Shown: in pieces, positions 5,239 through 58,274 of the stretch | Layout: every line of letters begins with the position of its first letter | Position numbering within the stretch: the first letter of the stretch is position 1 | DNA from: Gammaproteobacteria bacterium | GTDB taxonomy: Bacteria; Pseudomonadota; Gammaproteobacteria; SZUA-229 | Assembly (NCBI GenBank): GCA_029881035.1 | Contig: JAOUNI010000011.1 | Location: forward strand, 1-59,320 | DNA: 59,320 nt | Reading direction: 5' to 3' | The notes under the pieces: model-generated | The model's input: the letters and a program-made list of their open reading frames with translations, nothing else | Database searches by the model: none | Told to the model about the DNA's origin: nothing | Made by a program: the position numbers and the translations under genes

Positions 5239-6192
5239 ATGCAGGATCTATTTGGTCTGATTTTTAATTTCTGGGTAGGCTTCGCGGTTCTGGCGGTGGT
5301 CCTGGCCAAAACCTCAATCAAGTTTGTGCCACAGAATCGTGCCTACGTGGTCGAGCGCTTTGGTAAATACAACAAAACCATGGTCGCGGGGCTGAATTTT
5401 CTGCTGCCGTTCTTCGATAAAGTTGCTTATGACCGCTCATTGAAAGAGCAGGCCTTTGACGTGCCCAGCCAGTCGGCGATTACCCGGGATAATATTTCCC
5501 TGGTGGTCGATGGTGTGCTCTATCTCAAGGTGCTGGATCCCTACAAAGCCTCCTACGGTGTCGATGATTATGTTTATGCCGTGACCCAGCTGGCACAAAC
5601 CACCATGCGTAGTGAGATTGGCAAGATCGAGCTTGATAAAACCTTCGAGGAACGCGAGGTTTTGAATATTAATATTGTGGCATCGATCAATGAGGCCGCG
5701 GGCCCGTGGGGTGTGCAGGTGTTGCGTTATGAAATCAAGGATATCGAGCCGCCGCGTACCGTGCTCGAAGCGATGGAACGCCAGATGAAAGCCGAGCGTG
5801 AAAAACGCGCGGTGATTCTGGAATCGGAAGGTGAGCGTCAGTCGGCAATCAACGTCGCTGAGGGTAATAAACAGGCGATCGTGCTGGCGGCCGAGGCGGA
5901 CAAGGCGCAACAGATTCTGCGCGCCGAAGGTGAGGCGCAGGCGATTATTGCGGTGGCTGATGCCAAAGCCAGGGCGCTGGAAGTGGTCGGTAATATTGCG
6001 ATTGAAGAGAGAGGCCAGAAAGCCATTCAGCTGGATCTGGCTGGGCAGGCGATTGCTGCAAAAGCCGCCATCGCCAAAGAGTCTTCGGTGGTGCTGCTGA
6101 GTGATGAGAAAACCAGTGCAGCAAACATTGTGGCCGAGGCGATGACGATTATTAATTCGCTGAACAGGAATAAACCGGGTGGTGCCGCATGA
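5239..6192 (+). CDS. qmcA: SPFH/Band 7 membrane protein (QmcA/paraslipin type)
   Basis: A 317-residue stomatin-like protein. One N-terminal membrane segment (about residues 8-25) is followed by the Band 7 domain starting at VPQNRAYVVERFGKYNK, then an Ala/Glu-rich coiled coil (about 190-260). The length agrees with E. coli QmcA (305 residues). SPFH proteins of this group oligomerise into membrane microdomains and influence protease access and membrane quality control. A good ribosome site (GGAGAAAGG) precedes the ATG. The stop overlaps the next gene by 4 bp (ATGA), and that partner is NfeD-like, the classical arrangement for the family. Confidence 0.93.
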   Translation: MQDLFGLIFNFWVGFAVLAVVLAKTSIKFVPQNRAYVVERFGKYNKTMVAGLNFLLPFFDKVAYDRSLKEQAFDVPSQSAITRDNISLVVDGVLYLKVLDPYKASYGVDDYVYAVTQLAQTTMRSEIGKIELDKTFEEREVLNINIVASINEAAGPWGVQVLRYEIKDIEPPRTVLEAMERQMKAEREKRAVILESEGERQSAINVAEGNKQAIVLAAEADKAQQILRAEGEAQAIIAVADAKARALEVVGNIAIEERGQKAIQLDLAGQAIAAKAAIAKESSVVLLSDEKTSAANIVAEAMTIINSLNRNKPGGAA

Positions 6193-19055: not shown

Positions 19056-19185
19056 GCGTTCAAATTTGAATGGCTCAAATTTGAACGCTCGTAGTTTTTG
19101 TAGGCCAGGCACGCGGTCTGTGGCTACGCAGTTGTTAAATAAATTGGGGTGCGAGGGTAGGTAAAAAGCTTGCACACCCTACGTG
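19056..19185. repeat. Intergenic palindromes between PDC and GGDEF genes
   Basis: The gap holds a perfect 14-bp inverted repeat (GCGTTCAAATTTGA 19056-19069 with its complement 19075-19088, 5-nt spacer). Next to it are a hairpin-like block around 19096-19127 (GTAGGCCAGGCACGCGGTCT) and GTGCGAG/CTTGCAC around 19150-19176. They look like REP-type extragenic palindromes. The first also lies in the likely 5' leader of the PDC gene, where it could act as an operator or attenuator. Confidence 0.45.
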
Positions 19186-56075: not shown

Positions 56076-56944
56076 CCGGATTACCATTGACCTGGCCGGC
56101 ACCGGCCAAACTTAACCTTATGCTGCATATTACCGGCCGGCGCGCCGACGGTTATCATGAGCTGCAAACGGTGTTTCAGTTTCTGGACTATGGCGATGAG
56201 CTGAGGTTTACACCGAGAACGGATGCCATAGTGCGGCGGGCGCAAAATATTGCAGGCATTGCTGCTGAGGATGATCTGGTGGTCAAGGCAGCCAGAGCTT
56301 TACAGCAGGCATGCGGTTGCCAGCTGGGTGTTGATATTTATCTCAATAAAAAACTGCCCATGGGTGCTGGCCTGGGTGGTGGTAGTTCTGATGCGGCAAC
56401 CACGTTACACGCGCTAAATCGAATCTGGGCCTGCGGTCTGAACGATGCTCAGCTGGCCGAGATCGGCTTAAAACTGGGTGCCGATGTGCCCGTGTTTATA
56501 CATGGTTTTTCAGCCTTCGCAGAAGGCGTGGGTGAGCAATTAACTCCGGTCGAACTCGAACAGCCCTGGTATTTGGTGATTACCCCTGATATTCATGTCT
56601 CTACGGCCGCAATCTTCGGTGATTTAGAATTGACACGGGATAGTCCAGCCATCAAAATATGCGGCCTTCCAGATTCCGGCTGGGATAATGTGTGTGTGCC
56701 TGTGGTGACTAAGCATTATCCAAAGGTGGCTGAAGCGCTGGAACTGCTCGGACAATACGCCGAGGCGCGTATGAGTGGTACCGGGGCTTCGGTGTTTGCA
56801 GCCTTCGAAACCGAAGCACAGGCTCAACAAGTCCGCGCCAGTTTGAGAGACCCGGCGAAAGCAGGAATGCCTGAGTCGTGGAAAGATTTTATTGCCAGGG
56901 GTGTGAACACGTCGCCTTTGCGAATACAGCTAAGCAGCTGTTGA
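56072..56944 (+). CDS. ispE: 4-diphosphocytidyl-2-C-methyl-D-erythritol kinase
   Basis: A 290-residue GHMP kinase of the non-mevalonate isoprenoid pathway. It has WPAPAKLNLMLHITGRRADGYHEL, the ATP loop LPMGAGLGGGSSDAATTL and a C-terminal MSGTGASVFAAF. I choose the TTG at 56072 (overlapping lolB's stop as TTGA) because AGGGAAG precedes it and the protein then fits E. coli IspE (283); an in-frame ATG at 56045 adds 9 residues. Confidence 0.95.
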   Translation: MTGLPLTWPAPAKLNLMLHITGRRADGYHELQTVFQFLDYGDELRFTPRTDAIVRRAQNIAGIAAEDDLVVKAARALQQACGCQLGVDIYLNKKLPMGAGLGGGSSDAATTLHALNRIWACGLNDAQLAEIGLKLGADVPVFIHGFSAFAEGVGEQLTPVELEQPWYLVITPDIHVSTAAIFGDLELTRDSPAIKICGLPDSGWDNVCVPVVTKHYPKVAEALELLGQYAEARMSGTGASVFAAFETEAQAQQVRASLRDPAKAGMPESWKDFIARGVNTSPLRIQLSSC

Positions 56945-57006
56945 TTAATGGATTTGTGATCAATAGATAAACTGTTTTGTCCCATATGGGATAGCTAGAA
57001 GTTTAT

Positions 57007-57081
57007 TGGGCCGTCGCCAAGCGGTAAGGCACCAGGTTTTGATCCTGGCATGCGTAGGTTCGAATCCTACCGGCCCAGCCA
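57007..57081 (+). tRNA. tRNA-Gln (anticodon TTG)
   Basis: A 75-nt cloverleaf with acceptor TGGGCCG/CGGCCCA, D-arm GCCAAGCGGTAAGGC, anticodon stem ACCAGG...CCTGG with loop TTTTGAT (anticodon TTG), T-arm GTAGGTTCGAATCCTAC, discriminator G and an encoded CCA. It lies between ispE and prs, as in E. coli relatives. Confidence 0.97.
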
Positions 57082-57127
57082 TATACGAAGCTCACATAAC
57101 TATGAACTTCAATAGATAAATTGAGCA

Positions 57128-57251
57128 GGTAGGATGAGAACCGTAGTGGTTCGCCAAAATCGCCGGGAGCGATTTTGAACATCAGCGTTTTATGCTGATG
57201 GCCCGAAGGGTAAAATACAGGACGTATTTTATAATCCTACCGGCCCAGCCA
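57128..57251 (+). repeat. Multi-hairpin element with duplicated tRNA-Gln 3' end
   Basis: Positions 57233-57252 repeat exactly the last 19 nt of tRNA-Gln plus one base (57063-57082, AATCCTACCGGCCCAGCCAT). In front, GGTAGGAT (57128-57135) pairs with ATCCTACC (57234-57241), as an expanded tRNA T-stem. Between them lie hairpins: GAACC/GGTTC (57138-57152), CAAAATCGC/GCGATTTTG (57155-57177, loop CGGGA), CATCAGC/GCTGATG (57180-57200), CCC/GGG (57202-57210) and TAAAATAC/GTATTTTA (57211-57231, loop AGGAC). It looks like a mobile or propagated palindromic element built on the tRNA end. Confidence 0.8.
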
Positions 57252-57317
57252 TTTATGTATGCCTGTCTAATGGGTATTCTGCATTATTAGTAGTACACAA
57301 AACGAGACGCAACAGTG

Positions 57318-58274
57318 ATGCAAGAAGATAATCAACTAAGGATTTTTACCGGTAACGCAAATCCTGAGCTAGCAAAAAATATTGCTGGAAAGTTGAATAG
57401 TCCCTTAGGAAAGATCAGTGTTGATCGTTTTAGTGACGGTGAGATTTGTGTCGAAGTGATGGAAAATGTCCGCGGCAGGGATGTTTTTATTATCCAGCCG
57501 ACGTGTACACCCTGTAATGATAATTTGATGGAACTGATGGTGATGATTGACGCCATGCGTCGGGCATCAGCTAAACGTGTGACTGCCGTGGTTCCTTATT
57601 ATGGTTACTCGCGTCAGGATCGTAAGCCCCGTTCAGTCAGGGTACCGATCACGGCCAAGGTGGTGGCCAACATGCTGGCCAGTGTGAAACTGAATCGTTT
57701 GCTCACGGTCGATTTGCATGCGGATCAGATTCAGGGTTTTTTTGATATTCCTATCGACAATGTTTATGCATCGCCGATTTTGCTGGCCGATGTATGGCAG
57801 CAGCGCTATGAGAACCTGCTCGTGGTTTCGCCCGATGTCGGTGGCGTGGTGCGCGCCAGAGCACTGGCCAAACGTCTGGGTGATGCCGATCTGGCAATTA
57901 TTGATAAACGTCGCCCCAAGGCCAATGTTTCCGAAGTGATGAATATTATCGGTGACGTCGAAGGCAAAAACTGCGTGTTAGTGGACGACCTGGTTGATAC
58001 CGCCGGTACATTATGCAAAGCAGCGGCAGCGCTGAAAGCTAATGGTGCCTTGAGTGTCTCTGCTTATTGTACACACGCAGTGTTATCCGGTAGAGCGATT
58101 GAAAATATTTCCAGCTCCGTTTTGAATGAGCTGGTGGTGACTGACACTATACCTCTGAGTGAGGCTGCGCGGCACTGTCCGCAGATTCGCCAGGTGTCTA
58201 TTGCCAATATGCTGGCTGAAACGATTCGCCGAATCCATCAGGAAGAATCGGTCAGTGAGATGTATATCGACTAG
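57318..58274 (+). CDS. prs: Ribose-phosphate pyrophosphokinase
   Basis: A 318-residue PRPP synthetase (E. coli 315) that transfers pyrophosphate from ATP to ribose-5-phosphate. Motifs are [13 protein letters not shown], the ATP loop region ARQDRK-type ([10 protein letters not shown]), [14 protein letters not shown], and the PRPP loop [13 protein letters not shown]. Start at the ATG at 57318; a GTG at 57315 precedes it in frame. Follows the tRNA-Gln element by 66 bp. Confidence 0.97.

Follow-up and report, generated by a model that had tools for sequence, protein, structure and literature searches.

A tRNA-linked repeat with GGA-bearing hairpin loops between tRNA-Gln and prs in a gammaproteobacterial genome

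The locus between tRNA-Gln and prs

The window (the whole stretch of DNA that was analysed, 59,320 nucleotides) contains an intact tRNA-Gln(ttg) gene and, downstream of it, a strongly folded block at 57128-57252 whose last 20 bp repeat the 3' end of tRNA-Gln without a mismatch. We take the neighbouring open reading frames to be lolB and ispE on the upstream side, and prs and rplY/ctc on the downstream side. The features of the locus are as follows, with the basis for each in brackets where one applies.

57007..57081, + strand: intact tRNA-Gln(ttg) gene, host gene of the repeat (ARAGORN; Rfam tRNA model, 64.3 bits)
57063..57082, + strand: copy 1 of the 20-bp direct repeat AATCCTACCGGCCCAGCCAT, comprising the T-arm 3' strand, the acceptor 3' strand and CCA
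57128..57135, + strand: 5' strand of the outer stem, a T-stem mimic GGTAGGAT whose partner is 57234-57241 (fold)
57138..57152, + strand: hairpin 0 (GAACCgtagtGGTTC), small and leading (fold)
57155..57233, + strand: four-hairpin unit (A-D), with borders that elsewhere read GA^CAAA...GTA^A (own-genome and tandem copies)
57155..57177, + strand: hairpin A, loop CGGGA with a CsrA-like GGA at 57166-57168 (fold, covariation, loop statistics)
57180..57200, + strand: hairpin B, variable in sequence, loop without GGA (fold, covariation)
57201..57211, + strand: hairpin C (GCCCGAAGGGT) (fold, covariation)
57212..57230, + strand: hairpin D, AAAATACAGGACGTATTTT, GGA at 57220-57222 within CA(N)GGA, the CsrA consensus type (fold, covariation; consensus from PMC4005645)
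57233..57252, + strand: copy 2 of the direct repeat, the closing element and a second tRNA-Gln 3' end
57315..58274, + strand: prs, the downstream gene, on the strand of tRNA-Gln

The two copies of the direct repeat lie on the same strand, 170 bp apart, and differ at no position. In the fold of 57125-57256, the outer stem resembles the T stem of a tRNA (GTAGG...CCTAC) and encloses five hairpins, with a minimum free energy of -52.9 kcal/mol compared to -32 +/- 3.3 for shuffled sequences (z -6.28; 0 of 200 shuffles were equally stable). No open reading frame of at least 90 amino acids was found inside the element. The perfect repeat, outer stem, five hairpins, two GGA loops and lack of an inner reading frame, all described in the initial annotation, are thereby confirmed.

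A simple scan detected no promoter-like or terminator-like site within 56900-57400, and likewise none of the latter kind in the interval from tRNA-Gln to prs. Because tRNA-Gln and the element share a strand with no terminator-like site between them, co-transcription is plausible, and the element is most likely transcribed together with tRNA-Gln. Across several families, about 25 loci have an element of the kind discussed below between ispE and prs, and the identity of ispE is as low as 43% among them. In addition, a 15-bp repeat (14 of 15 positions identical) is found upstream of tRNA-Gln at 56960-56974 and upstream of the element at 57109-57123, which hints that the element arose through tandem duplication of the entire tRNA-Gln gene.

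Family identity, covariation and range

The tRNA-linked repeats (TLRs) have been known since 1978, and to our knowledge they have no accepted function. Escherichia coli K-12 carries 22 of them, in which 18-19 bp at the 3' end match the upstream tRNA or 5S gene (PMC8144298, Stenum et al.). By its sequence and fold, the window element is evidently a TLR of the type represented by Rfam RtT and E. coli rttR: the match to the upstream tRNA is perfect over 20 bp on the same strand, and structural homology with the E. coli TLRs was found with two covariance models, both trained without E. coli. Model R1, whose training copies bear GGA, matches the window at 57150-57236 with 101.9 bits and recovers rttR (E 6e-7), while model R2, in which loops A and D are masked to N, recovers RrB (E 4e-13), the E. 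coli side of this comparison being the rttR and rrnB loci only. Rfam RtT itself (RF00391, gathering cut-off 45 bits) scores the window copy at 31.6 bits, the same locus in a congener at 50.4 and a Serratia copy at 56.6, so that, given the score in the congener, the window copy is a diverged relative rather than a formal member. The initial annotation had read the layout as a tRNA 3' half with a structured insert filling the T loop, which is supported; that the layout represents a new kind of element is not supported, since the architecture is the one known from TLRs (Rfam RtT; PMC8144298). RtT RNAs, with Northern signals, have also been reported in Actinobacillus (PMC4986893), and an early claim that rtT acts in the stringent response was withdrawn, as noted in PMC8144298. 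As a side observation, the widely used rrnB T1-T2 terminator region of E. coli contains RrB (positions 435-515 of our rrnB locus; see also PMC8144298).

Further copies are plentiful in the host genome (2.69 Mb), where R1 finds 30 at E below 1e-3, and in an alignment of 21 copies 97.6% of the cells are paired, with changes on both sides in 12 of the 22 pairs. Sliding the 3' partners by 1-3 columns lowers pairing to 30-39%, and no shuffle reached the observed covariation. Both results, second copies and compensatory changes, had been named at the outset as those whose absence would count against the element. The copies are DNA palindromes too, so covariation alone is no proof of a role as RNA; it is their bias toward the tRNA strand that points to such a role. 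That the outer T-stem mimic is shared across the class has weak support (paired at 66%, versus 57% for shuffles with a maximum of 64%). Elsewhere in the window, the unit model gives weak matches at 19059-19144 (17.1 bits) and 5632-5736 (13.7 bits), perhaps decayed copies or chance.

BLAST matches occur in 35 of 58 relatives. Among 369 genomes sampled evenly from the Gammaproteobacteria, 151 (about 40%) are positive with R1 and 128 with R2. Named genomes with the unit include Alteromonas, Bowmanella, Aliiglaciecola, Gilliamella, Serratia, Buttiauxella, Kangiella, Shewanella, Rhodanobacter and Dokdonella. In a set of named genomes, a tRNA gene on the same strand is found no more than 500 bp away for 93 of the 110 copies, and no copy has one on the opposite strand only; over 20 tRNA species are represented. 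The search pattern for this set starts with GTTCGA and thus favours T-loop sites. The loop-blind class sample of 86 copies was chosen without that pattern; here 56 are near a tRNA on its strand, 27 are away from any tRNA and 3 are on the opposite strand, two of these nested in another copy. Where the unit sits in a T loop (105 copies), it comes after the tRNA in 83 cases and before it in 22, at a median distance of 74 bp. Identity to the 3' end of that tRNA reaches 12 or more of 14 bases in 72 cases; with other tRNAs, this level is attained in 5 of 86 comparisons.

GGA loops and a possible link to CsrA

A high-affinity CsrA/RsmE site consists of ANGGAX in a hairpin loop on a stem, and the form without N is weaker (PMC4005645, Duss et al.). 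Loop D of the window copy (ACAGGACGT) fits A(N)GGAX without N and loop A (CGGGA) fits in its GGA only; both loop A, of the form CNGGA, and the pentaloop AGGAC deviate from the best consensus. The two loops are 54 nt apart, and csrA is present in the host genome. Since R1 was trained on GGA-bearing copies, the search was repeated with the loop-masked R2. Among the 86 distinct copies recovered, GGA occupies loop A in 72 and loop D in 73, compared to 8 for loop B and 12 for loop C (Fisher p ~1e-31, a nominal value because related copies are not independent). CA(N)GGA is found in 63 of the 86 D loops, and A(N)GGA in no B or C loop.

In E. coli, RrA, RrB and RrF, the TLRs that follow 5S genes, interact with Hfq and CsrA, and mutation of three GGA motifs of RrB, two of them in loops, abolished the CsrA shift (PMC8144298). 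Loops A and D of RrB (CCGGGAG and CAGGACG) are identical to those of the window copy. CsrA binding through the GGA loops, called speculative in the initial annotation, is the strongest functional lead, and its suggestion of a structured RNA transcribed with the tRNA gains support by analogy with the homologous rttR and RrB.

The explanation that we favour, and hold to be mildly probable, is that the window element is a TLR that is co-transcribed with its tRNA, released as a small RNA and used as a CsrA decoy that follows growth rate. In the element, a duplicated 3' half of tRNA-Gln is interrupted in the T arm, past ...TTCGA, by the four-hairpin RNA unit. The element would be transcribed with tRNA-Gln and, by analogy with E. 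coli rttR and RrB, a small RNA would be cut out during processing of the tRNA-like 3' ends. The GGA loops of hairpins A and D would then bind CsrA, and the RNA would titrate it as a small decoy, present in amounts that track the transcription of stable RNA and hence growth rate.

Several results stand against this decoy reading. A minority subfamily that includes rttR of the E. coli tRNA operons has the same scaffold with loops lacking GGA; no CsrA signature was found in the 19 tRNA-operon TLRs of E. coli (PMC8144298). About 15% of the class-wide copies lack GGA in loop A or D, and such copies occur at the prs locus too. Because the GGA-less subfamily keeps the scaffold, GGA appears dispensable for the scaffold and its spread. 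Most of the 30 copies in the host genome are not beside tRNAs. The tie between the unit and csrA is also weak, with the unit present in 136 of 313 genomes with csrA and in 15 of 56 without it (odds ratio 2.1, p 0.026, kinship and missing contigs uncorrected), and the copies in genomes without a csrA match mostly keep GGA, a result blurred by incomplete assemblies. Finally, deletion of rrA, B and F in E. coli has modest effects in vivo (PMC8144298). With regard to other decoys, no CsrB or RsmZ exceeded the cut-off in the host genome, using models that are narrow and, for RsmZ, weakly positive in many control genomes.

Class-wide, TLR copies mostly carry two CsrA-type loops and may thus widely tie CsrA activity to tRNA and rRNA transcription. 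Perhaps TLRs are class-wide mobile CsrA-decoy cassettes that enter duplicated ends of stable-RNA genes and couple their transcription to the Csr network, with RrA/B/F as survivors of a state that the tRNA-linked TLRs of E. coli have lost; we offer this broader scheme tentatively and rate it below the reading of the window element itself. The existence of TLRs was already known. As far as the literature shows, what is new is their dispersal outside stable-RNA operons and the presence of CsrA-type loops in tRNA-linked copies throughout the class, compared to the published suggestion of RrA/B/F only among the E. coli TLRs. The retention of GGA in exactly two loops, matching the RrB loops needed for CsrA binding, gives an orphan repeat a testable role and provides a testable link between stable-RNA synthesis, and hence growth rate, and the global regulator CsrA.

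Dispersal of the unit and comparison with known systems

About 9 of the 30 host-genome copies are tied to tRNA genes or ends, namely Gln(ttg), Gln(ctg), Pro, Ser(gct), Ser(gga), Arg and a Ser-like end at a contig edge; the remainder are in other intergenic repeats. By BLAST alone, the inner four hairpins (A-D) recur at five places besides the one in the window. In one case (L002/L069), the unit splits a complete extra tRNA-Pro precisely within the T loop (TTCGA^[unit]^ATC), beside an intact tRNA-Pro. In such cases the entered tRNA copy is lost and the intact copy stays beside it, which suggests that duplication probably accompanies or precedes insertion. Three loci (L017, L023, L082) have tandem head-to-tail copies, from which the unit can be delimited as CAAA...GTA with GA in front and A behind, and three others (L153, L066, L179) have nested copies. 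Another pair (L004 and L005) are two instances of a longer repeat; the unit occupies a different position in each, and each therefore shows the empty site of the other. Copies are also found away from tRNA loci, sharply bordered (GA^...GTA^A) and in tandem and nested arrays, and this argues that the unit has spread, in agreement with the small, dispersed, non-autonomous unit proposed in the initial annotation. These borders and arrays raise the question of how tRNA loops can be entered by such a unit while the cell keeps its tRNA.

Perhaps the unit is simply a selfish, non-autonomous mobile block without a cellular function, which enters tRNA loops, 5S rRNA and other repeats at sites with GA in front and A behind, its GGA loops serving the mobilising enzyme or being merely inherited. 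The number of copies in the host genome, most of them away from tRNAs, the tandem and nested arrays, and the sharp borders (outside T loops, GA precedes the unit at 70 of 98 sites and A follows at 75 of 98) all fit this explanation. So do the entry of the unit into the D loop of tRNA-Ser duplicates (L070, L170, L174, L278) and the many near-identical copies within longer repeats of three genomes (G282, G158, G377). However, GGA-less copies are also placed precisely in T loops, so GGA is unnecessary for spread, and the presence of the element between ispE, tRNA-Gln and prs across families, together with the compensatory changes, fits selection on RNA. Neither an autonomous copy nor a linked transposase was found for the unit. 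A general preference for hairpin loops is not claimed, since joined flanks folded in 15 of 98 cases compared to 15% at control points. On balance we consider a purely selfish unit unlikely, if well worth keeping in mind.

Mobilisation by a known transposase, as the initial annotation envisaged, was not found: the three Y1 transposase loci of the host genome have no copy of the unit, and no RAYT lies beside any copy. The unit was accordingly rejected as a plain REP or RAYT-driven element, and it does not share a REP consensus with RAYT flanks. One of the three loci (L120, contig C16) has a RAYT-like Y1 transposase gene flanked by ordinary REPs of the GTAGGTTGGGGTGAG type, a separate palindrome system. 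Carriage by phages or plasmids was also rejected, as no phage or viral contig matched and the best plasmid matches span only the tRNA part of the query.

Other arrangements were observed around the copies. On the minus strand of contig C71 of the host genome (L003/L070), a tRNA-Ser 5' piece is duplicated between csrA and tRNA-Ser(gct), with its D loop interrupted by the unit, and another copy follows the next tRNA-Arg. The longer repeat around the unit in one genome (L098-L104, G282) is MITE-like, with start TTAACGTGAAAGTCGCGAAGC and end near GAGAGTTAA. Two unit copies (L136 3314-3442 and L198 2429-2563) contain a different two-hairpin insert with GGA loops (e.g. CAGGGAAG, CAGGAG); that of L136 again follows GA, and the two are possibly a second family of GGA-hairpin inserts. 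Directly upstream of an intact tRNA-Pro, several genera (L016, L024, L029) have truncated copies of tRNA-Pro that show an altered D arm and a hairpin.

Alternatively, the element may govern processing or stability, either of the pre-tRNA or of the 5' untranslated region of prs, its duplicated 3' end and stable hairpins setting 3' ends or protecting the downstream message. The interval from tRNA-Gln to prs in which it sits does lack a terminator-like site, this position recurs in several families, and the repeated 3' end of RrB was proposed as a processing signal by its authors (PMC8144298). This role does not account, however, for the presence of GGA in just two of the unit's four loops, and copies are found at many other tRNA genes and 5S, where the downstream genes differ; we regard this role as distinctly improbable. 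A remnant attachment site of an integrative element is already disfavoured and can be practically set aside: integrases leave direct repeats similar to the tRNA 3' end and its duplicate, but the roughly 150 bp between the repeats hold no open reading frame, and hence no integrase, the same folded unit in the same layout recurs at dozens of tRNA genes and 5S, and viral contigs and phages gave no match.

The known systems closest to the element compare with it as follows. Like REP/BIME elements moved by RAYT, the unit is small, dispersed, intergenic and palindromic, but it lacks the REP consensus of the resident RAYT. Like the decoys CsrB/CsrC and RsmX/Y/Z, the window element presents GGA in several hairpin loops; those RNAs, however, have many such loops and their own promoters, while the window element has two and is linked to tRNA genes. 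The E. coli TLRs, such as rttR in tyrTV, share with it the duplicated 3' end of the upstream tRNA, the tRNA strand, a related four-hairpin unit that the models match in both directions, and a T arm opened at ..GG[ATGAGAA..GG]TTCGA[hairpins]ATCC... They differ in that the rttR loops lack GGA, whereas the window copy has GGA loops and falls under the Rfam cut-off, and in that the E. coli TLRs are described in tRNA and rRNA operons while the host genome of the window also has dispersed copies. RrA, RrB and RrF contain the same unit with the same two GGA loops; their host gene is 5S rRNA rather than a tRNA, and the CsrA binding measured for them is what we would expect of the window element.
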